Assembly (NCBI GenBank): GCA_025765615.1
Contig: JAIVFJ010000074.1
Span: 1-64,000, forward strand
Direction of reading: 5' to 3'
Source: Zopfochytrium polystomum
Taxonomy: Eukaryota; Chytridiomycota; Chytridiomycetes; Chytridiales; Chytridiaceae
DNA: 64,000 nt
Part shown: one piece after another, positions 1,006 to 51,305 of the stretch
How the letters are laid out: every line of letters starts with the position of its first letter
Numbering within the stretch: position 1 is the stretch's first letter
Program-made: the position numbers and the translations under genes
The notes under the pieces: model-generated
The model's database searches: none
Seen by the model: only the letters and a program-made list of their open reading frames with translations
Told to the model about the DNA's origin: nothing

Positions 1006-2627
1006 CTAAGGCACACGACAAAGACCAATATGACTAAGATGGCAAGCACCTAAAGCAGCTGGTAATGATTTTGTAAGATAATCTGCTGGTTGCTTGCCAC
1101 CATGAATCCATTTCAGTCGAATCACTTGTCGATCAACCAGTTCCCGGATATAGTGATACTTAACCAGAATATGTTTTGACCTATTAGTGTAGAGATCGTT
1201 TGAGCTCAAATTGATAACGCCTTGGTTGTCAGTATAGTTTGGAATAGGAGTCGGGGACGGGAGCATAAGTGCTGTGTGCTGTTGTAAGATGGCCTCCAGT
1301 TCTCGTCCTAGTTCTGAGACTGCAACGTATTCTGCTTGCTGAGGTGACAGCAAAACTGTAAGACTGCGAGTTGATGCCCAGCTGATAGCGGTATTTCCAA
1401 ACAAAACAAAGTAGCCAAGTTGTGATTTCCCATCAGCATGAACTCCATGAGCAGCATCCGAGTAGCCGAAAATTCCAGACCCTGTGTTGGAATAAAGCAA
1501 ACCATACTCACATGTACCATTGATATATTGAAGGACTCGAATGAGGATCTGCAAGTGGTGTTTGCTTGGGTCCTTGCTGAAGGCGCCAAGATATGAGACT
1601 GCTGGTGCCAAGTCTGGTCGTGTGTGTGTTGCCAAATAGTTGATGCCACCAAGGATTGCTTGGTAGAGCTGTTGATTTGCTGTGGGTTCATCATTTTCTC
1701 GAGGTTGAAGAGTGAGAGGACTGGGGAGAGCAGTTACTGCTGTCTTCTTTCCATTGACTAGGTCTGCATGGCGTTGGAGTAACTCTTTGGTGTAAGCTCG
1801 TTGATGCAAGTAAATGCCAGTTGGTGTTCGATGAACTTCCATATTCAGTACAGTCTTGATATGACCTAGTTCGCAGAGCTTATAGAAGGATTTTAGCAAA
1901 TTGATGGCAGAGGTGATTTCCTCTGTGTGTCCAAAGAAACAAATATCATCGACATAGATAGCAATGAAAATAATACGTTCCTTTGTGCGCTTGAAGAGGA
2001 TGCACGGATCTGCTGCGCTTTGTTGGTAGTCGGCAGATTTGAGACGACCAATGAGTTCCTGGTACCAACAACGCCCTGCTTGCTTGATACCGTTGACAGC
2101 TTTGTGCAAAAGCGAGACCTTGCCATCCGAACGGTAGCCATCTGGTTGCTCCATGTAGATGGGGACATCAAGTTTGCTGTTGAGGTAGGCATTGCTAATA
2201 TCGACCATAGCTGTGTCCCAACCGTTTGAGGCTGTCATAGCAAGGAGCCATCGTAGACTATTGATGCGAACAACAGGAGAGTGAGTGTTCCAGAAATCAA
2301 CGCCACGACGCTGTGTAAAGCCCTTCGCCACTAGTCGTGCGCGAAAGCGCTCAATGCTGCCGTCCGGTCGAAGCTTGACCTTGTAAACCCATTTGTTCTG
2401 CACGACATTGACATTCTTGGGTCGATCAACGACTTCGAAGCTGCAAGCATTCTGAGAGCGTCAATCTCTGTTTGCTCTGCTGCTATCCACTCTTTGAACC
2501 ACTTTCCACTCATGGCCTCAGTGCGTGTTACTGGGTCTGGATATTTGACACTGGTTAAATATAGATGTCCAGATCGAGTATGTTTTGGAGGGGCTGCGCG
2601 TAGGGCTGCATGGTGATTTGCGCACAT
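1006..2627 (-). pseudogene. Copia-2 pol: reverse transcriptase and RNase H
   Basis: Ty1/copia-type pol read on the minus strand. The RT part has the copia signature AMSGKWFKEWIAAEQTEI, then after a frame break near 2400 KWVYKVKLRPDGSIERF, palm motif VDISNAYLN and the catalytic YVDD. RNase H follows with GYSDAAHG, SPQQAEYVAV and YTDNQG and ends near SKHILVKYHYI. The reading frame from 2403 down to 1006 is open for 465 codons. The element is not functional as it stands: RT is separated from integrase by repeat R1, and the integrase is cut by another LTR at 3892/3893. CpG is scarce, as in the other LTR elements here. Confidence 0.9.
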
Positions 2628-7405: not shown

Positions 7406-8121
7406 TTGCAGCACGGGAGTTTGAAATTGGAACATGCCAGGCCGTTGAGGTGGAGGAGGAAATTTGAAGTGGAACTCACAGTTACACTTCTTGACGGCAG
7501 AATGGATCCAGACTGGATCACTGACAACATTGTCTCAAACGTCAGCTACAAAGTGATGTACGAATCTGGACGTTTCCTCTACCGCAACGTCACCTACCGC
7601 CGCATCTATGAGACTGCGCTGATGGCAAGACTTGCTGGCGGCAACCCACACCAGGTCATCCTTGACTCTGGGGCTTCCAGGACAATGTCGCCTTGTGAAG
7701 AGCACTTCACAAACTTGCGGCCCACCTCCCAGCAGATCAAAACAGCTGACGGCTTTGCAACTGCCACTGGAGTGGGCGACTTACCCTGTTCGTTAACGGA
7801 AGAGCTCTCATCATGAGGAACTCACTCTATGTGCCAGAGTTCTCAGACACTCTACTCTCGGTTCAGCAAATCGTGCGGCAGACAGGTCACAACGTGACTT
7901 TCACAGCAGACACAGCCCTATCGCATCCTCGGGTACATGGTTCAGACTTTACCATTGCTCACAGGGACACAGGGAATGTCTATGTTGTGGACCCTTCTCT
8001 TCTGACGGACATACTGTCGACAGGGCAGAACTTGGAAGGGACGCGCCGACTCCTTCGGGGGACGCCCCAGGTGAGTCGCAACAGCAAACTGCTCCTTTGC
8101 AAACTGCAACCCCAACTTTAA
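7406..8121 (+). pseudogene. Copia-1 protease and pre-integrase region
   Basis: The frame 7406-7816 carries the retroviral-type aspartyl protease motif VILDSGASRTMSP (catalytic D of DSGA) near 7665. A frame change at about 7805 leads into 7813-8121 (MRNSLYVPEFSDTLLSVQQI), the usual copia segment between protease and integrase. A degenerate copy of this stretch recurs at 42870-43150. The protease would cleave the Gag-Pol polyprotein. Confidence 0.85.
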
Positions 8122-9518
8122 GTCAAACTGACCCAGACCCTTTACCAAACCCTCAGAACATTGAAGCAGTCCGAGCTCTTCACAAGAAATTTGGTCACCT
8201 GTCTTTATCTTCTTTGAAGCGTACTTGGTCAAATCTGAATAAAGTTGGTCATTCATTTTTCCTCATTCATGACATTCCCTGCGTGACATGTGATGTTGGG
8301 AAATTGAAAGCTTCGCCTATCCACTCCACTTCCAGACCAAACACCACACTGCTTGGTCGTTTACACACTGATGCTGTCCCACTGCCCGCACGTGGACACC
8401 ATGGTGAAAAACATTGGCAACTGGTTGTGGAAGAGTCAACCCGTTGGCTTGACATTGAGTTCCTCAACTCTTTGTCCGACGCGCCCACAAGATTCCGGTC
8501 TACGATCGAAAGGTTTGAACAACAACATGGCAAACATATCACATCTGTGCGCTGTGACAGGGGGGAAATCTTCAAAGATGGAGAATTCAAAACTTGGGCC
8601 AATACTCGGCATCCTCCTATTGTTTTAGAACCTAGTCCTGCATTCACCAAGGAATTCAATGGGCTGGTAGAACGTCAGGTCAACACTCTCAAAGACATGG
8701 CACACTGCATGCTCTTAGAGTCACGATTGCCCCACTCTTTCTTTGTGTATGCAGTCCGCTACGCAGCATACATCAAGAACAGGGTTTACCACTCTTACAC
8801 TAAGAAAACACCTTACGAAGCTTGGTACGGTGAAAAGCCAAATGTTGATCACATCCGCACCTTTGGCTGTTTGGTTATCCACCGTATCCCAAAGGAAAAG
8901 CGAACGCTTAAACATCCTGACAAAGGGGCGCCAGGCATATTCTTAGGGTATAAAGGAAACACTCTTCCAGTTGTCTACGACTTGAAAACCCAGAGAATAT
9001 CGGAACACTTCCATGTCTCCTTTCACGAAAATGTTTTTCCTGGCATTGTGCGGAACTGGAGACAGTTCCTTCATGACTCCCGCTTGAAGGAATGGGGACC
9101 AGTCCAACCCACAGCTCAGGATTTCCAATATCTTTCCTCCTCGTTGCATACCCCCGCTATGTCCACTGATCCAGATGTGGCACATCCTGACGCTCTATTT
9201 GACTCACAAGAAGACGATGTACCACCTGCAGAATCACAGGGGGGAGATCTACAGCCGGGTATGCTATACGACGCTTCTGATTCTGAACCAGAGTCAATAC
9301 CTGATGAGCAGGAAATCCCTCCTAGGGAGCGCTCAACTTCCCCTGACATTCTAGCATTGCCAGAGTCAACAGGGGAGGCAACAAATCCCCCAATCATACC
9401 ACGAGAGCCATCAGGTTTACGTGACTACCTGGCATTGAAGGCAAACCTTAACTACGAACAAAACCATCAATTGCCACAAGTCCTTCCACTTACAGTCGGA
9501 AAACACTCCACGCTTTAA
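8097..9518 (+). CDS. Copia-1 integrase
   Basis: An open frame of 473 codons. The N-terminal HHCC zinc-binding motif is present (HKKFGH ... CVTCDVGK), followed by the D,D-35-E catalytic core: D in LHTDAV, D in VRCDRGEIF and E in EFNGLVERQVN. The copia-type GKPNVDH/FGCLV and FLGY motifs follow, then an acidic, proline-rich linker toward RT. It would insert the cDNA. All catalytic residues are intact. A frame break after 9518 separates it from RT. Confidence 0.9.
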   Translation: MQTATPTLSQTDPDPLPNPQNIEAVRALHKKFGHLSLSSLKRTWSNLNKVGHSFFLIHDIPCVTCDVGKLKASPIHSTSRPNTTLLGRLHTDAVPLPARGHHGEKHWQLVVEESTRWLDIEFLNSLSDAPTRFRSTIERFEQQHGKHITSVRCDRGEIFKDGEFKTWANTRHPPIVLEPSPAFTKEFNGLVERQVNTLKDMAHCMLLESRLPHSFFVYAVRYAAYIKNRVYHSYTKKTPYEAWYGEKPNVDHIRTFGCLVIHRIPKEKRTLKHPDKGAPGIFLGYKGNTLPVVYDLKTQRISEHFHVSFHENVFPGIVRNWRQFLHDSRLKEWGPVQPTAQDFQYLSSSLHTPAMSTDPDVAHPDALFDSQEDDVPPAESQGGDLQPGMLYDASDSEPESIPDEQEIPPRERSTSPDILALPESTGEATNPPIIPREPSGLRDYLALKANLNYEQNHQLPQVLPLTVGKHSTL

Positions 9519-11361
9519 CTGCAAGAATTCGTAAACTACGAATAGCACGGGGACAATTTCGTGAACTCTACCAAACGCTCAAAGCGTACACTGTGCTTGA
9601 GCCGGAGGAAGTCACAGCATATCCAACAGTAAGGATCCACCAGCGGGACTTACCGCCACTCCCTGCTTCGCATAAAGAGGCCATGCGATTCTCCTTTTGC
9701 AAAGTATTGGAACGCAGCTCAACTCTCAGAGATCAATTCGATCACATCAAAGCACTGTCTGGGACCTAGTGGCTCGACCTAAAGGGCGTAAGATACTCAA
9801 GCCCAAACTGGGTTTTTGCCTACAAGTTTGACAGTGAAGGGTACCTTGAACGCTTCAAGGCCCGCCTTGTTAGTCGGGGTTACACTCAGATCTTTGGTCA
9901 GGACTACAATGAGACCTTCTCCCCTGTCGTCCGCAGCTCCTCCTGTAAGGGCAATCCTTGCTATCCTCGTTGCTGTTTGACCTCATCCTTGCAGGCCTTG
10001 ATGTCGAAACCGCATACTTGAACGCCAAACTGGACATTGAAAACTTCATGGAACAACCAGAAGGCTTTGAGATACGTGGTGCAGACGGGATACTTCTTGT
10101 CTGTTTACTCAGGAAGAGTCTGTATGGACTGCACCAGTCTGGTCGACAGTGGTACAAAACAATCCGCGACTTCCTCGTAGAAATTGGATTTACGCAATTG
10201 AAGACTGACCACTGTGTCTTTGTGCAAAGGCACCCTGATGGAAAGGTCAAGACCATCAGCACTCTATACGTAGATGACATCCTCATCTTCAGTCACACTG
10301 AAGAAGAAATTGCCAAAATTCTTTCTCTGATCAAATCAAAGTTCAAAATCCGCGAGGACCTCAACCCAAAAGTTGCTGTTGGCATCCAAGTTGAGAAAAT
10401 CAAGGATGGAATCTTTATTGGACAGAAAAACTACACACAGCATGTCTTGGAGGAAGCAAACTACTGGTGTGACGATGAAGGCTTACCTGTCAAAATCAAA
10501 GCAACTCCCATGTCCACGACATGGATACACAATGTGGACTTTGGAAAACTTCCACAACAAGAGTCGGAATACTTCCGAAGCACACTCATGCAACTTGCTT
10601 ACCTTGCAAATTTGACGCGCCCTGACATTGCGTATGCTGTGAATACACTTGCACAATACCAGTCCGCTCCAACCCATTCAGATTCCCTTGCGCTTGACAG
10701 ATTGCTGCAATATGTCCGCGCTACCTGGGATCATGGACTTTTCTACCAGAAGGGAGACTCCCAGAAGACATGCATCACCAATGCAACGCTCCCAGAGGTA
10801 GAGAAAGCTGCGGGTATTTCTTACCCAGAGTGGGATGAACCACATGGCTACGCTGATGCCAGCTATGCTGAAGAGGATGGACGCAAGTCGAGGTCAGGGC
10901 ATGTGTTCATGCTTTGCGGGGGTGCTATTACATGGTACAGCAAGAAACAATCAGTTGTCGCTTTGTCCTCAACTGAGGCGGAATACTTCTCCCTTACTGA
11001 GGCCATCAAAGAGGCAATCTGGCTACGAATGCTCTTCCAGGAGCTGGGTATGGATTCAAATAAGCCCACTACTGTTTATGAAGAGAATTGTTCAACCATA
11101 GCTATTGCTATGAATCCAATACACCATGGCCGGGTCAAACACTTTGACGTGAGGTTGCATTTCATACGGGACCACTTCGAGAAAAAGGAGGTTCAACTCA
11201 TTCATTGCCCAACGGACATGATGATTGCCGACCTTCTCACCAAAGCTCTTCCCGCAGCTCAACATGCAAAGCTTGCATCACTGATGGGAATTTGCAGTCT
11301 CGCCGACCTCCAAGGTGTAAGCGTGGTGCCCACGCTCAAATCAGCACAACGCTTAGTCTAA
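9519..11361 (+). CDS. Copia-1 reverse transcriptase and RNase H
   Basis: The first 440 bp need frame changes (motifs [31 protein letters not shown] and [11 protein letters not shown] are spread over frames). From 9958 the frame is open for 467 codons: palm [13 protein letters not shown], catalytic YVDD ([11 protein letters not shown]), RNase H with [19 protein letters not shown] and a third motif reading VYEENCST where most copias have xCDN, that is E in place of D. It ends with ADLLTKALP. This is the best preserved copia RT in the window. Confidence 0.92.
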
Positions 11362-30235: not shown

Positions 30236-32171
30236 ATGACGTCTTGCACGCCAATCTCGACGGCGGCGGCGGCAGGGCCAGCAGCAGAACTGCGGCCGCA
30301 ACGGCCCCGGCGGCGATTGCGGACCCCGCCAATCACCACGACCACCACCACCATTACCGCTGCTGCGAAGGCGTATCCGACCGTAACGCGGGCGGCAGCG
30401 CCGAACTTGTCGCATTGGGCTGTGCGAGCGCTGCCGCCGCTCGCCCGTTCCGTCTACGCCGTTGCCACTACCGCCGCCGTGGTCGCTGCCGTCACGTTGT
30501 CGACTCTAGTGGCCAACCACGCGTCAGCGTTGACTACCTCGGCAACAGCTAGCAAGGACTTCGTCTCGTGAGAATCGCTTTAAAGAACAGGCCCACCGTT
30601 GCTCCATCGACAGTGTTTGCCGTTTGTGAGCAATCGTCTCATCTACCCACCATTCCCTGTCCCTCTTTCACAGGATCCCCCTCACTGCGGCGGTCACTAC
30701 TGAACCGGATACCACAGTTGCCGACGGTCGCAACCTGGCGTCTGCTGCATCCGTTGGCGGAGTCGAAACCCAGTCCGTTGTGAGTCTTTCGCGCTCAAAA
30801 ATGCTTGCGGCGCTTCGCAGTTTTGAGTCGACGCGCCTGGCCTCCGCCTCTTCCGGCTCTGTATCTTCGGCGCCGTTAAGCGCTTTTCCCTCTCAGACTG
30901 AGGTAAATTATCATGCGTTCTTTCCAACCAACCGGCTTTTCGTTCGGGCACCGGAGATTCTCACCAACGTCATCCCTCAGTTCCGGGGAACCATTAGCCT
31001 CGGCACCCCGTCTCAGGAGTTTCGCATCATCTTCGACACAGGATCGCATGACACTTGGATTGTGTCGAAGGACTGTAGCGACGAATTCTGCACCGCAACC
31101 AATACAAAATCTTTTGACCCTGCGGCGTCGTCCACGTACCAAAACCCGAACACTGCCGCCCCGCAAATTCAGTATGGCGATGGAACAACGGTCAACGGCA
31201 TTCTCGCGCTGGAAACAATCACTCTGATTTCTCCTTCGTTCGTTGCGAATAACTTCATCTTCACACAAGCGACAAGCGTTAAAACGTCCGTCAGTGTTGG
31301 GGAGTACGATGGTCTTGTCGGAATGTCTCTTCCCATTGGGACAAATGACCCCAGCCCACCACTCATGTCCGCCATTCTCCAGTCCGGGAGCGTGTCGACG
31401 ACAGGAGCCCTCTTTGGATACTATATCGCACAAGGGGAGCTGACTGGCACCGTGACGGTCGGGGGGATTGACAAGACACTGCAGGCAGACCCAGCTTCCT
31501 TCCCTGTTTGGTTCGATCTGGACAAATCGGCAAACATGGTCCAATCCGGTTCGTGGGCACTTCCGCTCTCGTCGCTGATCGTCGGGAACAAGCCCTTCGC
31601 CATCTCCTCGGGGGGCTCCGCTGCCTCGGTCTTCTTTGACACAGGCATGGCCCTCGGCACCCTCCCACAGGCCGTGTATGATAGCCTAGCGGCGGCGTTT
31701 CCCTCCTCGAAGAAGATGGCCACGGGGTCTGGCTCGGTCGACTACCTCTGGCAAGTGGACTGCGCTACCGCACAGAACGCATCCTCACCTGCCCTGGTGA
31801 TCGCTGTCACTGGTACAGGGTACCAGATTCCGCTTTACCCGGCAGAGTATGTGATTGACCTTGGCAGCTCCACGTGTGTCATTGGGTTCCAGGTCTCTGC
31901 CAGCAACCTCGTGTTTATGGGAAACACGTTCTTTAAGCGTTACTACACCGTCTTTGACTATGGACAGAGAAAGATTGGGTTCGTTCTTGCAAAGGGAAGG
32001 ACGGCAAATGGTTTACCCGCACCGGCTGCAGCGTCTACTTCGACTGCTGGCCAAGGAAATGGTGTATTGTATGGCGGTGCGTCTAGCCCTCGTTTGTCGC
32101 GTTCGACCCTTGCGGCTGCATGCGCAGCCATTCTGTTGATTGGGTTGTTTGAGGCGAAGCTCTATCGGTAG
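30236..32171 (+). CDS. Pepsin-family (A1) aspartic protease, membrane-anchored
   Basis: Two exons, 30236-30567 and 30674-32171, joined across a 106-bp GT-AG intron; the join keeps frame (FVS|IPLTAAVTT) and gives about 609 residues. Residues about 70-95 (SVYAVATTAAVVAAVTL) form a signal-anchor-like hydrophobic stretch, followed by a propeptide. The mature enzyme begins near YHAFFPTNR; RGTISLGTPSQEF precedes the first catalytic motif IIFDTGSHDTW (D about 231) and the flap reads QYGDGTTVNG. The second motif is VFFDTGMALGTLP (D about 432): both aspartates are present, but Met replaces the usual Ser/Thr after the second DTG. A C-terminal hydrophobic segment (LAAACAAILLIGLFEA) suggests a GPI or membrane anchor. 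Likely a cell-surface or vacuolar endopeptidase (inference). Its 3' end converges on the peroxidase-fusion gene; AATAAA lies near 32316. Confidence 0.92.
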
Positions 32172-32673: not shown

Positions 32674-35600
32674 TTATAAAGCAAAGACGGTCTCGTAGCC
32701 CATTCCTCGGAGCATGTCGCTGACGTTAACGTTAAAAATGGCCGGACTGCGACAGGGTTGGTTGCGGATTGGTGAGCGGCGGGGAAACGGGGATGACCAA
32801 AAAGGATGTTCAACGCAAGAGACCAAGAAGCTCACCCGCAGATGACAATAGCGACAGCATCCTGTGGCGCCGCGCTGCTGGCGGTGCTCGCTTGCACGGA
32901 CGACTGCGGCTGGAAACCTTCCGCCCAACCGCTAACCGACACCGCGCCTGACCCAATTTCGAACGATGGCACTCTGCTTGGTACACCGAGTCCGCCACCG
33001 CCACCGCCGCTGACGATGATGCTTCCAGGAACATCCTCCTGGACTGACGGCGGTACGCTCTCCGACATTGACGCCATCAGTATTCGCCCTCCACCTGGGG
33101 ATAGCCCTGCCCATCCGCCGTTGCCGCTCCCCGGGACGACCCCACCGGCAGTGCCGGTCGCTACTCCGGCCCCCGTCCCGCCTCCACCCCCGCCAGCATT
33201 CCGTGGCAGCGACCCACGTGAAAGCGTCCCTGCTCGCCGAGCAATTAGCTCGTCTCCACCAAAGATAGGTCGGAACCCGCTTGTCGACGAGCGATTCTCG
33301 CGCGCGGCCTGCACCGCCGCCGGACCGCTTGCGGCGGTTGCAGCGCGTTGAAGTGATTGCTCGATGGCATCTTGAATTTTTTTTTTTTTTTTTTTTTTTT
33401 TTTTGGTTTCGGGTTTCACAATGAAGGCATTTTTAGTGAGTAGAAGTGACTTACTCCGGCCAACCACAAATTAATCGAAGAGAACAAACATTCGGCCACG
33501 ATGCCGCTCCCCTGGGTGGACGCGGCCGTCGCTGCTCCTTGTGCAGCCATCCGGTTCCAAGTGCCGCTGTTCGCGCTGCCTGCCCCGCCCGCATTCCGCA
33601 GCCCTGATGTTACCACTGGCCTCGGCATGGTGGCCGCAACAACCTCCTCGTTGATCGTCCCCACAAGCGTGCTGAGTTCAGGCAGCGCCGAGAGACCCGC
33701 CGATGTTGGCCGCGAAAGTAGGTGAACAACGGACAAAGAACCGCACGCCGAAGCCTCCATTTTCGCCAGTTCGGCAAGTGCAAAAAGGTCCGTTTCGGTG
33801 CTATTCACCCAGAGCAGACTAATTTGGACGTTGGGACGGTTCGTGGCCGGATCTCGTTTTGCCTTCATCAGGTAGTAGTCGATTATTAGAAGCATGGGCG
33901 TTAACCCTGTGTTTGGTGATTTCAAATTGTGCAAAAGGCAAAGAATGTCTCTTTAGGACACGAATAGCAGGGAATATTGAACGGCACCTGTCCCTGCTGC
34001 GATCAAGCCGAGCTTTTTCCACAGTTTGTTTTCTGTGTGTGGGCTTGCAATATCGACGTTCATGACAGGACCCCGCATTCGTATCGTTTGGCACGTCATA
34101 AGGTGCGTCGTCATCTCACCGTTGTAATTTTTAACGATGAAATCTATGCTGCCAACATTGACAACGCGGACGGGCGTGTACGCTCGAGTCACAATCTTTT
34201 TGTTTTCGCCGACGAACTGAAAGTGAATAGACTCTCCCGGTCTGAAGCGTGCCTCGTCGTCTTCGTTTGGAAGCAGCACGTTGATTCGCCAAAGCTGCCG
34301 CTGCATACTGTCGGTCGCAACCATAGTTCGCGACCCCACTGCAAAGTGGCGAAACTTGCTCATCGACAGGGGCGGCCTCTTCTTAGGGCCACCAGGCGTG
34401 CCCGCGGCGGCAGTAGCGGCAGCTCCTCGCTCCATCGTATCTCCCGTCTGCACTGTCGACCCATCCACTGACTGCTTGCCGGAGGAGAGCCGCCGTCCAA
34501 TCGACAAGACACCATAGTTTCCCACGGTCCTTGCCAAGTCCAAGTACGATACCTCTGCCGCCTCCTCTTGCCTTACCCGGCCCACCACCATTTCGTTCAG
34601 TAAGTGCTGCGCGAATCTCGAGTGCGCGTGCGTATCTGCCACTGCTGCCTCCCGCCGTAAATCTGCAATGCCGCCTGCACCGCTGGCGCCCTTCGTTTTG
34701 GGTGGAGTCGGCTCCCGCGCACGCGCCATCGATCCCGACGCGCTGTCTGCCGTCTTGACGCGCCTCCCTCGACCTTGAGTGCGCCGCCGGGCCAAACTAG
34801 CTGCATCGTCAGTCCCACCGCCGCTTCCGCTGGCTGATACCACCGATGCCCTGTCGCCCCCGCGCATCATTGTCATTCGAAGCTGGGAGCGGTCCGCCCC
34901 AAAAAAGTAGCGAGTTGCGTCCAAACCAATCATGCGCACAATGGAATTCGAACCACCTGGGTGTGTGGGCAAGAACTTTTCCACGTCATCTGCACAAACG
35001 GTTGACCCCTCCATCTGTAAGTACATTTTAAACACCCGTATTTTAACAGAACTCACAAATAAAACCATCAATAACCAGCCACTGCGCTCCGACGGCCACA
35101 CGCCGGTTAATTTCTTCCCATGAGAACTCTGGGAGTTTGTCGGTCTCGCTCGTGGCATCATCTGTGGTCCGAAACCGGCCTTGGAGAAACTCTCCATAAA
35201 TAATGAGCGCCACAGGGCAGATCCAAACGGTTCCAAGATATGCGCGCGTAAGGAGTACGTTGTAAGAAGTTCCAGCAGAAATATCGTTGACTCCCAAATA
35301 GCCGTTGAAAAGACCAGAAAGGTACGCTGAGAAGCCTATGGTACGATGCAGCATCCGAAGAAGAGTGTGAAAGAAGGAATACTTTGGTGACACCAGGCGA
35401 ACAGTGAGGAGCCCTGCAAGGGAAGAAAGCAGCACGAGACCAACGGTAACAAGGCCCAGTTTGTAGTGCAGAAATGTTGAGTCTCCGTAATTTCCAATGA
35501 AAGCTGTCAGCGCTGCAACGAACACCTTGAAATAAATCGTTGTGGGAACTGTGCGATAGAAAGAGCATATCACTCACATTCGATGTGACCATTTTCATCA

Positions 35601-38600
35601 TGGTTTCGTGTATGACGAGCCACTTATTCACGTGGTAGTACCTTACAACGAAAACGCCGATTGGGAACACCAGCGCAAACGCGATGTACATCGTTACACC
35701 ATGCAGAAGCTTCAAGCTCATGCTGGCAGATGTCTTGACTGCGACAAAATCCGAACTAGACGTGGAGAAAAAGTTGACATAGCCGGCAACTCGATTGACG
35801 GGTCCGTGCCAGATCAGGTCCAGGCTGTCCGAGAATGCAAAAATTACAGGAGTCGAACCAGTCTTAATGACCGCGTCGAGTGGGTCGCCTGTGTCCAGTT
35901 TACGAGTGAATGTGACAACCCGCAGTGATCTGGTCTGAAGGTTCGTAACGTCGGCGACTTTGAAAATATCATTGGAGCTGCCTTGCGATACGTCGCTTGT
36001 CGGTGGTTGCGTCTGCGTGCTGTGCAAACGCGCAGCCAGTTTGAGCGTTGAAGTGTCACCCTGAAGGCGGATCATACCTCCAAGAATCGTAAACCGTAAA
36101 GCTTCCATTTCCCGAGTCGGTGCAAAAGTAAATATCCGTTCCCAACATATTTAGGCCGAAGCCGAAACCAAACCATCCTGATGCGTTACTCGCAAACTCA
36201 AAGGTCACGGTACCGTCGTCCATGCTTATGTTCCATCCCAGTCTTAGTCGACCCAGTACCTGAACGCTTCCGTCAAAGCCAGAAGAACCTGAGTTGGGTA
36301 CTGTGGCCGAACCGGACAAGAAATACAGCGACGATGCGTTAACGCCAACAAAAGGATCACTTGGATAATGAGGTATCCGGGAATTCGAAAGCACCATGCT
36401 TCCAAGTGTGTAATTGGAGAGGTCGGCGTGGTCTTCGGAAGTTAGGACCCCTACATTCTCGTACCAAAAGCGATCGCCGTCCCGGAGACGTCGAAATTGA
36501 TCCATCAGGGATACTCGCATGAGCGGGCCGATGAGGCTGTTTTTGTGAATATGATCCTCTGCAAACGCGCCTGATTATCGAGTATGGGAGGAGTTATTTT
36601 CATCATGTTGTCTTATATTTAGTCCTGGCAAGGCCTCTGGCTTTGACTCACCCACGTAGGCGTCGAAGTCGCTAATATTTGTGTACAACTGAGACAAAAT
36701 TCGCTGAACTTCTGTTTTGGAGGTAACGTCACTCCACGTTCTTGCCGGTGCCAAGTTGAATGCTTTTCGGCAAGTGTTGTAGTCGGGGATTCCAAGCTCT
36801 CGGGCACTTGATTTGGTTTAGGTCCCACAATCAAATAGACAACTTGTTGGGACCCCTACCGTTGCAGCCCGATCGCAGCAATGTCAAAATGCCCCCCAGG
36901 GTCTGCCAGTGGTAAGAAGCTCCGCATATCCTCCACAAACGTCGTGTCAATCACTTGATCGTTTTGCGTCGCAAAGCCTCTTAGTATGGACTCGATTCCG
37001 TAGGTCGTGACTTCGTCACATATGCTTTTATAGAATGCATCTCGAAAGATGAGATGTCCTTCGGGCACCTGGTTTCCGTAATCGTCTAGTCGTAAGACGA
37101 GCGGATTGATAGCACTGTGTCCGTAGCGGAAGGCTACATTTGCAAAAAATAGGTCAATCGTGGGGTCGACGGTCGGATCGTAGCCGGAGTAAGGGGGTAG
37201 TTGCTGGCCGGTGAGATCCGGAAAGTACTTCATGTCATGTTTTTGAGTGGATGGGGCGTGGGGAAAAGAGGAAGGGATAGCCAGATGCATTGTTAGCGAC
37301 AAAATGTGCTGGTTCTAGTTTCCAAGCCAGTGAGCGTACGAAGTAGGCGGTGGTTTTTTGGACAACAGCAATAACCCATCGGCGGGCTCGCTGAAAAAGC
37401 ATCTCGTCAGACCAATCTGGGTGCCTCGCTGCGAGTATCCTGGCCCGCCTGTTGTGCTCGCGAAAGAAAAGAGTGTACGTGACCGTCAGGTGCTGAGTAT
37501 TGACGGAGCAGCCATGTAAATTGGTACATCAGTGGGGGGCTGCGTGAAGAGAGCTCCAATGGATCCAAAAACAGCCAACTCGCTCACCGGCATCATGTTG
37601 ATGATGTCACTATTGTAAGTGAAGTGCCCGTCGAGAGGCCCTCCCACGAATCGCGGGGGGAACTCTCCGGTGGGAAGTATCTGGAACTTGAGGAGACCAC
37701 CCGAAAAGAGCCTCATGCTGGCCATCTCGTCCATTGAATTTCCGTACAGCCCGCTGCAGTCGATAAAGCTCGTGAAGGCATTGGTGACAACGCGAGAGTT
37801 GGTTGTGGCATTAACGGCCACGTACTGCGAGCGAAGAAAGTTGATGGTGTGGCCGCCCTGGCCGGTTGGGTCGAAGATCGGGTCGCCCGTCGGCACAGCG
37901 ATGGGAAAGGGTTCGGCTGTGCAGAGAGTGGCGTCGCGCGCGTGAGTCTTCTTCATTCACCGAGACAGAGAGCAGTGGACAGACAGACAGACCGACAGAC
38001 AGGCAAACGGGCAGACAGGCAGACAGGCAGGCAGAGACTCAGACACTCACATGCATTTCGCGGCAGGATCGTAATGTCCAGGTGCAGCATGACGCCCCAC
38101 GCAGGAAGAAAGTCAGTGACGCCTTCGGTGTTTTGCAGGTAGGGCTTGCGGCTGAAGAGCGCGTTGGAAATGACGCGTGCACCAGGGCGCGACGCTCCGC
38201 TTGGAGCTGAAGACCATGATGTGTTGCGGCAGAGGTCCCGTTTTCGTTACTTTGAGTAGCGTTGAAGAGGTTCCGTCACCCCCAAAGAGAAAAAAAAAGA
38301 AGTTTCCGCCTTCAAGCACTGACGCCAAGCTCGTTTGCCCTCATCGAAATGACTTACATTGACCAGGACCATACAGTGGCGGCACGCTCCGCTGGTAGGG
38401 ATTACCCACAGCCCCCCACATCGGGTTCGCAACGTTGTTTCCCTTGCCGTCCATTGACTGGACCTCGAAAGGAAGGCTCGCAGCAGCAGCACGACTATGG
38501 AGCAAAAGCTCTTCCCGATTTTCGCCCCGCGGCTGCTTCATTGATGGCCAAGCTCGACCATAGTTGCACGCGACGAGGAAAAGGATCAGTAAAGCTGAAG

Positions 38601-38610
38601 CTTGTGCCAT
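32674..38610 (-). CDS. Heme peroxidase-DOMON-cytochrome b561-cytochrome b5-FAD/NAD(P)H reductase fusion
   Basis: One multi-exon gene of about 1,690 residues. Exons I can join: 38610-38358, 38206-38051, about 37956-37340, 37227-36860, 36806-36652, 36570-36060, about 36060-35578, 35525-35057, 34989-33988, 33906-33455, about 33375-32836, 32746-32674. Order: signal peptide (MAQASALLILFLVACNYG); animal-type heme peroxidase (NPMWGAVGNPYQR, SGASRPGARVISNALF, TSFIDCSGLYGN, FFREHNRRA, proximal His in AFRYGHSAINPLVLR, ending DGDRFWYEN); DOMON (WFGFGFGLNMLGTDIYF); b561 core with five histidines in LLHGV, VIHETM, FLHYKLG, FFHTLLRMLHR; cytochrome b5 (VIDGFIYDVEKFLPTHPGG, second His in HSRFAQHLL); FAD site RAYTPV; NAD(P) site LIAAGTGLTPM; VAIVICG joined to PAIFNVN at the end. 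Exon joins at the b5 core, AAGTG|LTPM and ICG|PA restore family motifs exactly. Expected role: electrons from cytosolic NAD(P)H cross the membrane to the outer DOMON/peroxidase. The frame slips by one base near 37490 and 36063, and two joins (exon 2/3, exon 10/11) do not match in phase. Confidence 0.85.
37970..38045. repeat. CAGA-type microsatellite in an intron of the peroxidase fusion
   Basis: Imperfect CAGACAGACAGAC repeats between the second and third exons; a related GTCTGCCTGTCTG tract occurs in the 5' region of the protease gene near 30137. Confidence 0.7.
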
Positions 38611-38937: not shown

Positions 38938-40819
38938 ATGGCAGACGGCGACGACGGCCCCGTACGCGGTCTCGACAAGGACGTGAGTCTACCCCTCACA
39001 AGCACCGCAACCCCACCCACCCCTTCACCTCTCCTTCTCTGCCTCCCTAGCCTGCCAGTCTCCTTTCAGCTCGTTCTTGCCTTGCTTGTGTCAATCCCCC
39101 ACCAATTCATACCACCATCCGCCACTTTCAGTTATTGTTTCCTCCCTCTGCTCCTCCCCACCTGGCCTGCTGTGCTTCTTTGTGCTACATGTCTTTCTAT
39201 CTCTGGCGGAGGTGCCTCCCATCCCGACCGTCCATTCATCAGAACCTTGACAGTTGAAGTTAGGAGATTTGAATTTTCCAGCACACCCTTGATCCTCACA
39301 ATCATGCCTGTTGATCGTCCCAACGATCGTGAAGAATGGTGTCTCTATAAGGCCCTTGGCCACTCTCTGCACTCACCCTCCCTTTGCATATTCTTTTCCC
39401 TGGACGATAAATCTCTCCATCTCTCCGCCCTTCATGGCCTCTGCTGATCACTTTTGACCCACAGCTCGCTGAAAAGGCGAAGGCAAAGTATGATCCGAAG
39501 AGGGAGCAAGAAGGTTTGTGTTGTGAGAATTTTTTGATTGAATACAACCTCTCGCCGTATTGAACAGGTACACTCCCACCCTTTCAGCAAAGGAGTATAT
39601 CGAAGATATTTCTGGGGAAAAGTTTTCATCGTCAAGCTTCCACGAGTCCTTGAAAGATGGTGTGCTTCTCTGCAAAATGATGAACCGGATCATGCCCAAC
39701 CCCCCGATCAAGATTACCACTTCCAAGATGCCGTTCAAGCAGATGGAAAATATCGCCGCGTTCTTGGACCGAGTGGAAAAGCTGGGCGTTCCAGCGTACG
39801 ATCGGTTCCTGACAGTCGATCTTTATGAAGCGAAGAACATGGACCAGGTTATAAACTGCATCTTCTCGCTTTCTCGCTATGCTGCAGCTGCTGGCTTCGA
39901 TGGACCAGTGCTTGGACCTAAGCTCGCCTCTCGCAATGAGCGCACTTTTTCGGAAGAGCAACTGGCCCAATCCAAAAATATCGTTCCAAAATTGGCTTCT
40001 TTCACCAGCAAGGTTGGTTCCACACCTCTAACTGGAGGTCGACGAGAGATTGGTGGAATCTACCTCGACTCGTCGGCAAAATCGTCCCTCGAAGATGGCC
40101 TGGCCTCTGTTTCGATTGGGTCTGCGAAAACCGCTCCGGCATCGTCATCGGCGCCGCCTGCCTCGACCCCTGCCGTGCGCTCTCCGTCGCCTCCGCCGCC
40201 AGTGTCGACGGCCTCTGCTTCCGCCATCGGCTCCTACAAATCCGTTGGTGCTGCTCCGTCGATTGGATCGTACACGCCCACCGGATCCACCCCTTCCACT
40301 CCTACCCCTGCTCCCCTACCTACTTCGTACGCGTCCGCCCCAACGTCTGTTTACAGTAGCCCTCCGTCCGCAGTACCGACGGCGCCAATCTATTCCAGCA
40401 GTTCTGTACGTGCCGCACCTGTCGCTATAGTTGAAGAACCGACCCTTCGCCCCTCCGCGGTTGTCGAAACTCGTGCCGGAGGAACAGCCCACTCTTCCTC
40501 GTCCACACCCTCATATTCGTCCTACTCGGCTGGCGGCTCATCAGGAGGCACTTCCTCCCATGCGTCCTACTCCTCCTACTCCGCAAGCCAGCAACCGCCG
40601 CCGCGTGTTTCGTCAGCAGTGCCGTTTGGAACCTCTGGGCCCGGGACTACTTACGTGTCGTCTGCTGCGTCGCCACCCCCACCTGCTCCAGCGCCTGTCA
40701 CGCAGCCGAAGAAGCAGCCTTACCAGTACTACGATGATGATGACGAAGAAGTTGTCGTGATTGAGGAAGACGATGACTACAATGATAAAGACGACATTAT
40801 TGGGGCTTATGGACGGTGA
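38938..40819 (+). CDS. Transgelin/calponin-homology actin-binding protein
   Basis: Three exons (38938-38982, 39465-39513, 39588-40819) joined in frame at DKD|LAEKAKAKYDP and REQE|AKEYIED, giving 441 residues. A single calponin-homology domain spans about residues 25-135 (FHESLKDGVLLCKMMNRIMP, MENIAAFLDRVEKLGVP, DLYEAKNMDQVINCIFSLSR). The transgelin-type continuation LGPKLASRNERTFSEEQL follows, and a remnant calponin repeat GGRREIGGIY. Fungal homologues (yeast Scp1 family) cross-link actin filaments. Unlike the short yeast protein, this one has about 240 further residues rich in Ser, Pro and Ala and an acidic end (YYDDDDEEVVVIEEDDD). The first intron is about 480 bp. Stop is TGA. Confidence 0.92.
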
Positions 40820-46746: not shown

Positions 46747-47670
46747 ATGTCTGACCCAAACAACACCTTCCCTGATGCAACTGCCTTCCAAGCCTTGATG
46801 GACCAATTACAAGCCCTTTCAAGACAGACACACCAACTTCAAGAACAAGTCCTTCACCAGCAGCACCAGCTTCAACAACAACTTCACCAACAAGAACATC
46901 AAGCTCTTCCCCTGCCCCAAGCCAACCAAGCAAGAGAGCCCAAGGTTCCCAGCCCTGACAAGTTCACTGGGCTGGCCAAAGACCTTAGGAACTTTATGGC
47001 CACTGTGGAGAATGTCATCCTTCTCCAACCTTCAAGATTTCCCAGTGAGCAAGTCAAGGTTCTTTTCACAAGCACCCTCCTGTCTGGTCAAGCTCAATCA
47101 TGGTACAGATCTCTCCCAAGCACACCCACCACCCTGCAAGAGCTCTGGGAGGGGCTGGAAGCTACCTTTGGTGACCCCTACGCATCTTGGACAGCAAGAT
47201 CCAAGCTCAAGCATATCAAGCAAGGAAAGCAATCTTGTGTGGCCTACACCAACCAATTCAAGCAACTAGCCAGAGACTCTGGATACAATGATGCAGCTCT
47301 GATGGAGCTGTACCATGATGGTCTCCATGAGTCCATCCAAGACATGTTCTCCAAGTCTCTGCACATCCCTGAGACCTTGGAAGAGTACATTCTCCTTGCC
47401 ATCAAGATTGACAACAGACTCTACTCCAAGAGGCTGAAGCAAAGACAAGTAGGAACTACATCAAGACCTACCCCAGCCCCTCAAGCTCTTACAGTTCCTG
47501 AACCCATGCAAGTGGATGCAGTTGAGATACTTCCTAAGGGTCCGCTGAGCCAAGAGGAGAAAACAAGGAGGGCCCAGCAGGGACTGTGTTTCTACTGTGG
47601 CTCCAAGGAGCATGCTGTCAAGGACTGCCCAAGGAAGAAGCACCCAAACTCCCAGGTCCAGGCTCACTGA
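46747..47670 (+). CDS. Gypsy Gag with CCHC zinc knuckle
   Basis: 307 residues. An N-terminal glutamine/histidine-rich coiled stretch ([17 protein letters not shown]), a capsid region ([50 protein letters not shown]) and a zinc knuckle [14 protein letters not shown] near the C-terminus. It forms the particle and packages RNA. The last 85 bases overlap the pol frame; a C CCA AAC heptamer lies 18 bases before its stop. Confidence 0.95.
47643..47649 (+). other. Putative -1 ribosomal frameshift heptamer
   Basis: CCCAAAC fits X XXY YYZ in the gag frame (codons CCA AAC), and pol is in the -1 frame. It sits in the gag/pol overlap, six codons before the gag stop. Confidence 0.6.
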
Positions 47671-50600
47671 GGGGCAATTCCCAGGACCCTCCTTCAAGCT
47701 GCCCCTGTTTCATCACCACCACCAGCACCACAAACACCTCAGATTCCAAGCCCCACCAACTCACCATGGATGTCAAGATTCAACTCTCACCCAAGCCAAC
47801 CATCACAACCAAGGCCCTTATCGACTCTGGATCATCCTGCAACATCATTGATGCCACCCTTGCCAAGTCTTGTGCCATTCCCACCATCAAGAAATCCACA
47901 CCCCTCAAGGTCCACTTTGCCAATCATGCTCTGTTCAAGGAAATCAGCCATGAAACCAAGCTAAACCTCCACATCCAAGACTTTCCACCATCCATGGTCA
48001 ACCTGGAAGTATTGGATCTTGGCTCACCCACATTCTCTGTCATCCTGGGATTACCATGGCTGCAAGCCCAGAACCCTGACATTGATTGGGTCACTGGTCA
48101 AGTCCAACCTCCACCAATTGGAACAGTCACCCAAAACTCAAGTCAAGCCCCCAAGTCTCATGCTCTCAAGCCCTTGATTCAAGATTCACAGCCAGCCAAG
48201 ACTCAAGTTCCACAGTTCACAGTTCACAGTCAAGATTCAAGTAGAGCTCATAGAGCTCACAGTCATGGCCAAGACTCTAGTTCACAGAACCCACAGTCAA
48301 AGATTCAAGTACCACAGTTCACAGTCCACATTCAAGATTCAAGTTCCACAGCTCACAGTCTTTGCCAAGAACAGAACTCTCAGTCAAAGATTCAAGAATC
48401 ACAGTTCCCAGTCAAGAATTCATGCCCCACTGCTGAAGAGCACAGGAACTTGGACCCATCAGATCTTTTGCTGGCATCCAAGCTACCAAAAGAATATCTC
48501 CCGTATGCTCATGTGTTTTCCAAAACCAAGGCAGACCCGTTACCAGCTCAGAGGCCTCATGACTGTGAAATCCCACTCAAGGATGAAACTTGCAGCCCAC
48601 CTTTCAAGCCACTGTACCACCTCTCTCCACCAGAAGCCAAGGCCCTCCAAGAATACATTGAAGAAATGCTGAACAAGGGATTCATCCAACCTTCCAAGTC
48701 ACCAGCTGGAGCTCCCATCTTTTTTGTCAAGAAGAAGGATGGGGGACTGAGACCCTGTGTGGACTACAGAGATCTCAATGAGATGACAGTCAAGAACCGC
48801 TATCCACTGCCTCTCATCTCTGAATTACTGGACAAACTGAGCCATGCAAGGATATTTTCCAAGATTGACCTCAGAGGTGCCTACAATTTGGTCAGAATTA
48901 AGCCCCAGGATCAATGGAAGACTGCCTTCAGGTGCAAATATGGTCACTTTGAGTACTTGGTCATGCCCTTTGGACTTACCAATGCTCCAGCTATTTTCCA
49001 AGGCATGATGAATGACATCTTCAGGGATATTCTGGACCTTTTTGTCATTGTCTACCTGGATGATATCCTGGTATTTTCGTCTGACACTGCAAGCCATATG
49101 GGACATGTCAAGACTGTCTTGGAGAGACTCTGACAGCATCACCTCTATGCAAAGCTGGAGAAGTGCGAATTCCACAAGACCTCCATTGAGTATTTGGGGT
49201 TCATTGTGTCTGACAAAGGGATCTCCATGGCACCAGACAAGATCCAAACTATTCTTGAATGGAAGGCTCCAAATTCCATCAAGGATGTTCAAAGCTTCCT
49301 TGGGTTTTGCAACTTCTACAGAACCTTCATTGCCAACTATTCTGCCATAGCCAAGCCTCTCACTGATCTCACCAAGAAGACCACCAAGTTTGAATGGACC
49401 CCAGCAGCAGAGCAAGCCTGGCTAGCTCTAAAGACAGCAACCACAAGTGCACCACTCCTTAAGCATGTGGATCCCTTGCTTCCCTTCACCTTGGAAACTG
49501 ATGCCTCAGACTATGCCCTCGGTGCTGTTCTGTCCCAGCCAAGCTCTCAGGACCCCTCTGCTCCTCTGCATCCAGTGGCATATTACTCCAGGAAGCTGAA
49601 CAGTGCTGAGTGTAACTACACAGTCCATGACAAGGAGTTGCTTGCAATTGTGGAAGCATTCAAATTCTGGAGACACTACTTGGCTGGTTCTAAAGGCATC
49701 TCTGTCTATTCTGATCACAAGAACCTCACCTTCTTCAGGGCAAGGAGGTTGCTCAAGCAGAGGCATGCCAGGTGGGCTGAACTGCTCTCTGAGTATGACT
49801 TTAAGCTGTGCTATTCTCCTGGCCACCTTAACATTGTGGCTGATGCCCTGTCAAGAAGAACAGACCTTGCACCTGAAGGGGGAGATGGTTTCACCCCACC
49901 ATCCAAGACACACCTTTCATTGCTTCCTGACAGTGTGTGAGCCAATGCTATTTCCAAGGACCCCAAGCCTCACAAGATTCAAATCAGCCAAGAAGAGGAA
50001 AAACTTGAGATACTCAAGACAAGGCATGATGCAGCAACAGCTGGACACCCAGGAGAGCACAAGACATATGAGCTTGTTTCCAGAGACTTCTACTGGCCAG
50101 GCATGAGGAAGTACATCAAGAACTATGTCAGCAGCTGTGAAACCTGTCAAAGAAACAAATCCAGCAGACACAAGCCCTATGGACTTCTGGAGCCCCTCCC
50201 AATTGCCATCAGCCCTTGGTCATCAATATCCATGGACTTCATTGTGAAACTGCCCCCATCCCATGGATTTGACTCTATCCTTGTTGTCATCTGCAGAAGG
50301 ACAAAGTTGGCCCATTTTATCCCCTGCACTGAGAATATAGATGCACAAGGAACAGCAGACCTGTTTTTGCAGCACATATTCAGGCTCCATGGGCTGCCTC
50401 AGTCAATCATCAGTGACAGAGGACCTCAGTTCAGATCTCAATTTTGGAAAGCACTCACAGCAGCCCTTGGAATCAAGTCTCAACTGTCAACTGCTTGTCA
50501 CCCTCAGACTGATGGACAAACAGAAAGAACAAACCAGACTCTGGAGCAGTATTTGAGGTGCTATGTCAGCTATCAACAGGATGATTGGCCCACCCTCCTT

Positions 50601-51305
50601 CCACTGGCAGAATTTGCTCTCAACAATTCTCTCCACTCAAGCACCCAGCTATCTCCTTTCTTTGCAACCTATGGCTTCAATCCAAGAGGAGATCTTCTGG
50701 GACAAGAGACCCTATCCAATGTCCAAGCTCCTGCTGCGGCTTCACACTTACATAAGCTCAAGATCATCAACTCCTTCCTGGACTCCACCCTGAAGCAAGC
50801 CCAAGAAGATGCCTCAAGATTTGCCAACACTCACAGAATGGACCATGACCTTGCTGTGGGTCAGCAAGTTTGGCTTCTGAGGAAGAACTTGCAGACCAAA
50901 AGACCAAGTCCCAAGCTAGACAACCTCAAGTTGGGACCTTTCAAGATCTTGGAGCAAATCAATCCAGTCACCTTCAAGCTGGATCTCCCTGCATCCATGA
51001 AGATCCACCCAGTTTTCCATGTCAGCCTTTTGGAGAAGTTTGTGGCCAATTCCATTCCAGGCAGAGTTGTTCCTCCTCCTCCTCCAGTTGAGGTAGAAGG
51101 TGAAGAGGAATTTGAGGTTGAACAAATCTTGGATGCCAAGTGGTTTGGAAGAACACTCAAGTTCCTTGTTAAGTGGAAAGGTTACTCAGATGCTGACAAC
51201 ACCTGGGAACCTGAGTCAAACCTCACTCACTGCCAAGACCTTCTGCTCAAGTTCAAGACCAGGTACCCCACCAAGTTGCAGAAGAGGCCTAAAAGGGGGA
51301 GATGA
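47650..51305 (+). CDS. Gypsy Pol: protease, RT, RNase H, integrase, chromodomain
   Basis: One frame of about 1,218 codons. Protease [13 protein letters not shown] and [37 protein letters not shown] and YLDDILVFS; RNase [13 protein letters not shown]; integrase with the HHCC region ([12 protein letters not shown] ... CETCQRN) and DDE residues in [18 protein letters not shown] and [14 protein letters not shown] chromodomain closes it ([28 protein letters not shown]), which would guide integration to chromatin. In-frame TGA codons at 49131 and 49938 sit where arginine (CGA) is expected in the first case; both could be single C-to-T changes. The final TGA touches the 3' LTR. Product is read from a -1 shift out of gag. 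Confidence 0.94.

Follow-up and report, generated by a model that had tools for sequence, protein, structure and literature searches.

A one-chain candidate for electron export with a peroxidase-like head and a b561-like core in the chytrid Zopfochytrium polystomum

Results

One gene, one reading frame

The stretch of DNA analysed here, hereafter the window, comprises positions 1 to 64,000 of contig JAIVFJ010000074.1 (C74, 278457 bases) in the 80.16 Mb genome of the chytrid Zopfochytrium polystomum, a species that the NCBI taxonomy assigns to the order Chytridiales. Its minus strand carries, from 38610 to 32674, a gene whose 13 exons join into one frame of 1622 codons with zero internal stops and whose product lines up a peroxidase-like head, a DOMON domain, a b561-like membrane core, cytochrome b5 and an FAD/NAD(P)-binding reductase. 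We propose tentatively, as a reading somewhat short of probable, that its product is a single membrane protein for the export of electrons, the heme of the head passing them most likely to O2.

The coding region (32674..38610) runs from an ATG at 38610 to a TAA at 32674 through exons 1-7 (38610-38358, 38206-38051, 37916-37588, 37492-37340, 37227-36860, 36806-36652 and 36570-36078) and exons 8-13 (36019-35578, 35525-35057, 34989-33988, 33906-33455, 33359-32836 and 32746-32674), all introns being GT-AG and 52-151 nt long; the coordinates and strand given in a preliminary description of this DNA were exact. Of the 12 exon joins, 11, compared by eye, are consistent with the one-chain orthologs introduced below; the exon 11/12 join is uncertain (33491/33374 in the public model, 33455/33359 in ours, both in frame). 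Aligned identity to these orthologs amounts to 30-69% in exons 1-11 and 13 (2 of 4 residues in P0003 for exon 13) and to 0-25% in exon 12, a low-complexity insert that is credible at its end only. Chance assembly of the exons was ruled out by these identities and the fitting joins, since one-chain orthologs exist that are 45-51% identical to the window protein.

A domain search on the spliced product, the check suggested by the preliminary description, places in order and over the curated Pfam cut-offs An_peroxidase (residues 51-540, exons 1-7, 36365..38460, 386.6 bits), DOMON (residues 579-698, exons 7-8, 35833..36250, 60.6 bits), Cyt-b5 (residues 918-975, 45.6 bits), FAD_binding_6 (residues 1171-1251, 34055..34297, 34.9 bits) and NAD_binding_1 (residues 1268-1341, exons 10-11, 33704..34006, 33.4 bits); domains called absent in this work gave no match at E up to 0.1. 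The signal peptide of the preliminary description is kept as a hydrophobic, signal-like stretch only, seen by inspection at residues 1-20 (38551..38610).

The same chain in other chytrids

Relatives were retrieved by protein searches in which about 8000 candidates sharing short exact words with the query were scored each time, and the restriction to chytrids described here holds within that scope. Residues 560-1000 as query gave four proteins, every one of chytrid origin: P0001 (Chytriomyces hyalinus), P0002 (Blyttiomyces sp.), P0003 (Chytriomyces sp. MP71) and P0004 (Rhizoclosmatium globosum). Each of them holds An_peroxidase, DOMON, Cyt-b5 and FAD_binding_6 in one chain; only P0002 adds NAD_binding_1, and the models of P0002 and P0004 are devoid of parts of the b561 core. 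The single polypeptide first proposed, with its parts in one order on one strand, therefore stands as one 1622-aa frame whose layout is shared by one-chain orthologs, and looking for the same domain order elsewhere, as had been advised, yielded one-chain records with nearly the same domain set in four other chytrids. Residues 784-1622 retrieved three proteins (P0038, P0002 and P0003). With the peroxidase part 33 proteins were recovered, namely nine of named chytrids, counting the window protein itself (Zopfochytrium, Obelidium, Cladochytrium, Chytriomyces, Rhizoclosmatium twice, Powellomyces, Entophlyctis and Phlyctochytrium), P0012, which is a JGI protein with DOMON, and 23 others; several of the chytrid records are partial. 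Rhizoclosmatium and Obelidium aside, the relatives belong to Chytridiales, Cladochytriales and Spizellomycetales, Blyttiomyces being incertae sedis.

Public annotation divides the gene

The deposited annotation cuts the gene in two inside b561 and lists on the same contig P0005 (784 aa), identical to residues 1-783 plus one further residue, and P0038 (735 aa). Two adjacent genes, the outcome named beforehand as refuting a single polypeptide, thus exist as a public model, a peroxidase-DOMON membrane protein ending at 784 and a separate b5-reductase, and an acceptor site lying 13 nt further downstream than the modelled one would give just such a truncated form. Against this division, the cut falls between b561 helices 2 and 3 and parts the ligand positions of the core, and the second model does not hold up, as P0038 opens in the wrong frame within exon 9 and retains intron 9, and so lacks the first half of b5. 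Since the four orthologs continue as one chain across the exon 8/9 join, we read the two-gene model as an annotation error, and consider it very improbable that two genes are present.

The peroxidase fold is kept and its distal site altered

The distal Gln, His and Arg and the proximal His and Asn are functional residues of animal-type heme peroxidases. We counted them in 14 chytrid rows (13 named chytrids and P0012) and 21 non-chytrid ones. Chytrid rows with letters at these sites have lost the distal Gln in 10/10, the distal His in 10/10 and the distal Arg in 11/11 cases, the motif Q-x-x-D-H becoming V-x-x-H-L. The non-chytrid animal-type peroxidases, a group that also comprises 8s6c and peroxinectin A, keep all three in the 21/21 database rows counted, a retention that would have been lower with the three distant sequences left out (P0036, P0037 and the C58 frame), which have Gln in 3/3, distal His in 2/3 and both Arg and proximal Asn in 0/3 in those columns. 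An intact peroxidase was ruled out by these counts, and the earlier idea of a chain feeding a working heme peroxidase is not supported.

On the other hand, the proximal His334 is present in 14/14 chytrid rows and Asn534 in 12/12 with letters, the probable calcium-site residues are retained as well, and a new histidine, His126, is invariant in the 10/10 chytrid rows with letters, on a predicted helix (117-129). His126 presumably occupies the position of the heme-ester Asp of myeloperoxidase and not that of the catalytic His. In the structure model the peroxidase fold is intact (mean pLDDT 80.4), and peroxidase matches fill the fold-comparison list. Because the residues that activate peroxide are lost and the proximal heme ligand is kept, we see the head as working reductively, probably as a heme-loaded, electron-fed domain.

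In a tree built from 33 of the 38 rows (P0036, P0037, the C58 frame, P0011 and P0012 left out), a branch supported at 100/100 separates the 12 chytrid rows from the others. P0008 and P0009 form a sub-branch of their own (100/98) with the distal motifs WGLNTHLD and WGVVMHLD, and their species also hold a one-chain member; the two are likely paralogs retaining the new His. The C58 frame is a second peroxidase-fold gene of the Zopfochytrium genome (L009, C58:34936-36402), one frame of 758 residues on a contig with no DOMON match, whose motifs look Ppo/dioxygenase-like to us, a type to which we presume P0036 and P0037 also belong.

DOMON and the membrane core

The probable heme ligands of the DOMON domain, Met613 and, just beyond the domain, His707, are present in 5/5 fused proteins. 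Elsewhere in the genome, DOMON genes lie in tandem at C37:187030-200948 and C216:40658-63167 (minus), several with two DOMON matches per long frame; the two arrays give equal or near-equal scores, as if they were two haplotypes or a duplicated block.

The membrane core that follows (residues 735-895, exons 8-9, 35190..35724) shows five hydropathy peaks in the average of five aligned proteins, with segments at 743-892. It had been described as a five-histidine b561, which was loose wording: six histidines lie in the core and four of them (His742, His773, His803 and His843) at b561 ligand positions, His742, His803 and His843 being conserved in 5/5 fused proteins and His773 in the 4/4 that cover the site. 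The Pfam b561 model gave no match in the window protein, P0002 or P0027, and stayed below its cut-off of 23 bits in P0001 (16.5 bits) and P0003 (9.1 bits). Of 12 frames at four b561 loci of this genome, a core profile built from the family itself matched three, giving E-values between 8e-11 and 3e-8 at C224 (a DOMON-b561 frame) and at C179. Owing to the ligand pattern and these profile matches we take the core to be a DOMON-linked type of b561.

With a signal peptide in front and an odd number of helices, the peroxidase head and DOMON would lie outside and b5 and the reductase inside. Among the hand-chosen loops, that between transmembrane (TM) segments 3 and 4 holds 4 K/R and no D/E, and TM2-TM3 and TM4-TM5 hold no K/R. 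Eight N-glycosylation sequons occur within residues 21-735, the stretch scanned.

Cytochrome b5 and the reductase

Cytochrome b5 comes in two parts. The first (residues 918-972, exons 9-10, 34892..35123) bears HPGG with His949, and the second (residues 1056-1080, 34568..34642) bears HSRFA with His1062; the 83 residues between them (973-1055, 34643..34891) form an insert that varies among orthologs. In the intact protein the Pfam match ends at position 58 of 74 because this insert parts HPGG from HSRFA, and its removal raises the score from 45.6 to 58.4 bits and extends the match to positions 1-73 of 74; over residues 11-91 of 102 the insert-free domain aligns with its best match among solved b5 structures. 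A missing second b5 histidine was ruled out by the HSRFA stretch and by this removal, and both axial histidines are found in 5/5 proteins. As judged from these alignments the b5 domain is complete, and the HPGG cytochrome b5 noted earlier is indeed there, but with its second ligand past the insert.

Flavoproteins of the b5-reductase type carry the motifs RxY[ST] for FAD, GxGxxP for NAD, and CGP. The window protein has all three, as the preliminary description of an FAD/NAD(P)H reductase had it: RAYT in the FAD-binding domain, GTGLTPM in the NAD(P)-binding domain, and ICGP at the reductase end (residues 1597-1622 and the stop, exons 12-13, 32674..32843), after the long low-complexity insert. 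In the PDB it comes closest by sequence to NADH-cytochrome b5 reductases, with E-values of 5.2e-9 and 3.3e-8. P0027, from Phlyctochytrium bullatum, runs from a partial peroxidase through DOMON and the membrane core to b5, after which an NT5C-type phosphatase domain takes the place of the reductase; this arrangement is either a variant or a gene-model error.

Neighbouring sequences

An aspartyl protease frame (30630-32168, plus strand) ends about 500 bases beyond the 3' end of the gene and a calponin-homology frame (39542-40816, plus strand) lies upstream, neither with an obvious functional link to it. Retrotransposon pieces, comprising RVT_2 frames and an element with RVT_1, integrase and chromodomain, occupy 1009-2460 (minus), 7797-11358 (plus) and 47538-51302 (plus) of the window.

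Discussion

From the order of domains and the conservation of their residues we infer topology, heme loading, the direction and order of electron flow and the terminal acceptor, each heme of the chain having conserved probable ligands. Cytosolic NAD(P)H would reduce FAD and then cytochrome b5, from which electrons would cross the membrane via two b561 hemes to reach the DOMON heme outside and then the heme in the peroxidase-fold head; the head would work reductively and most likely hand them to O2, giving superoxide or H2O2, as a dual oxidase does on its NOX core. Outward electron flow, perhaps to O2, is our best guess, with O2 as the first candidate acceptor.

Among the literature matches listed, a set with most subscription papers outside its scope, we found no description of the peroxidase-DOMON-b561-b5-reductase layout, in agreement with the preliminary remark that no such protein was known. 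The nearest comparisons are to systems that share one part of the chain each. Dual oxidases (DUOX) also have an N-terminal peroxidase-homology domain but combine it with a NOX core and EF-hands, and because neither has a Pfam match here (NAD_binding_6 stays under its cut-off, with 19.4 vs 22.2 bits), membership in this family was rejected. The dual-oxidase-like solution on b561 instead of NOX, as it was originally put, survives in its b561-like core and as a probable parallel, but with a head that is probably no working peroxidase. Human DUOX1 has lost its heme-ligand His (PMC7794343), whereas the chytrid head keeps the proximal His and loses distal residues; the DUOX peroxidase domain of some animals is described as able to use H2O2 (PMC4409361). 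The CYBDOM proteins, represented by Arabidopsis CRR, have an extracellular DOMON with Met/His ligands and a five-helix b561 with four conserved His (PMC10784552). The window protein shows this succession too, a DOMON and then a b561 of five helices and four His, though not by the Pfam b561 model alone; it differs from CRR, a DOMON plus CYB561 protein described as ascorbate-dependent, in its fused b5 and reductase inside and its peroxidase-like head outside. The succession of FAD and NAD domains after b5 recalls NADH-cytochrome b5 reductases and the nitrate-reductase type, from which the chytrid protein departs by its transmembrane chain, long inserts and the motif drift in 3/4 orthologs. Fungal Ppo enzymes and linoleate diol synthases likewise fuse a peroxidase-fold domain to another redox module (PMC4420034), but their partner is a P450, and no P450 was matched here. 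DOMON is also fused to ferric reductases in Naegleria and oomycetes (PMC3591440) and mentioned with FAD/NAD-binding oxidoreductases (PMC10784552), in neither case with a peroxidase head in the sections consulted.

What the head does is the point on which the alternatives differ. Metal reduction is the strongest rival to oxygen reduction, although still rather unlikely: the protein would be a CYBDOM-like enzyme that reduces ferric or cupric ions outside the cell and is fed from NAD(P)H, with the head as a scaffold or metal-handling part without catalysis of its own. Arabidopsis CRR, a DOMON-b561 protein, does reduce ferric iron (PMC10784552), and the loss of the distal catalysts recalls the loss of the heme ligand from the human DUOX1 head (PMC7794343). 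A head that had lost its heme would, however, hardly be expected to retain His334, Asn534 and the probable calcium-site residues as strictly as the chytrid rows do, nor to have gained an invariant distal histidine. This new histidine speaks for a peroxide-reducing enzyme, in which His126, on its predicted helix, would replace the usual His found one position later and NAD(P)H would serve to remove H2O2 or lipid hydroperoxide; we hold this to be improbable, as the distal Gln and Arg are lost too and the residue presumably sits at the heme-ester site. An oxygenase seems very improbable; its peroxidase-fold heme, reduced by electrons from the b5 reductase chain, would activate O2 to oxidise a lipid or an aromatic compound, somewhat in the manner of Ppo. 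The C58 gene of the same genome looks closer to the Ppo type.

Several observations weigh against the proposed export of electrons to O2. The b561 core is the weakest of the domain calls, being under the Pfam cut-off, and its own profile missed the loci with the best Pfam b561 matches, C124 (E 0.02) and C14 (E >= 0.44). The loop-charge signal is weak, with 1 K/R and 1 D/E in TM1-TM2 and 3 K/R vs 5 D/E after TM5. At the donor end, the Ser/Thr of the FAD motif is replaced by Trp and the Pro of the NAD motif by Ala or Gly in P0001, P0003 and P0004 (3/5 proteins), NAD_binding_1 is matched in the window protein and P0002 only, and the P0027 model shows no reductase; these replacements may mean that the donor end of the three orthologs is changing or losing function, and the case for NAD(P)H as the source is strongest in Zopfochytrium and Blyttiomyces. 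Public annotation, as discussed, lists two genes. Finally, the genome has eight other NAD_binding_6 matches of the ferric-reductase/NOX type, the best with 114.9 bits (C16, C156), so that electron export in this fungus need not be the task of the gene described here.

Nonetheless, it is tempting to speculate, with more doubt than attaches to electron export as such, that chytrids possess, besides NOX/DUOX and FRE, a one-chain oxidase leading from NAD(P)H to the outside and made of reductase, b5, b561, DOMON and a repurposed peroxidase with a distal pocket rebuilt for reductive heme chemistry. If true, it would be convergent with the vertebrate dual oxidase, whose peroxidase head likewise lost key residues. 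A fused fungal head that keeps the heme ligand and loses other catalytic residues provides an independent test of what such heads do. Our results also suggest that fused proteins of this kind can escape notice in databases when gene models cut them in two, and that b561, known from ascorbate-fed CYBDOMs, can form the centre of an export chain supplied by NAD(P)H.
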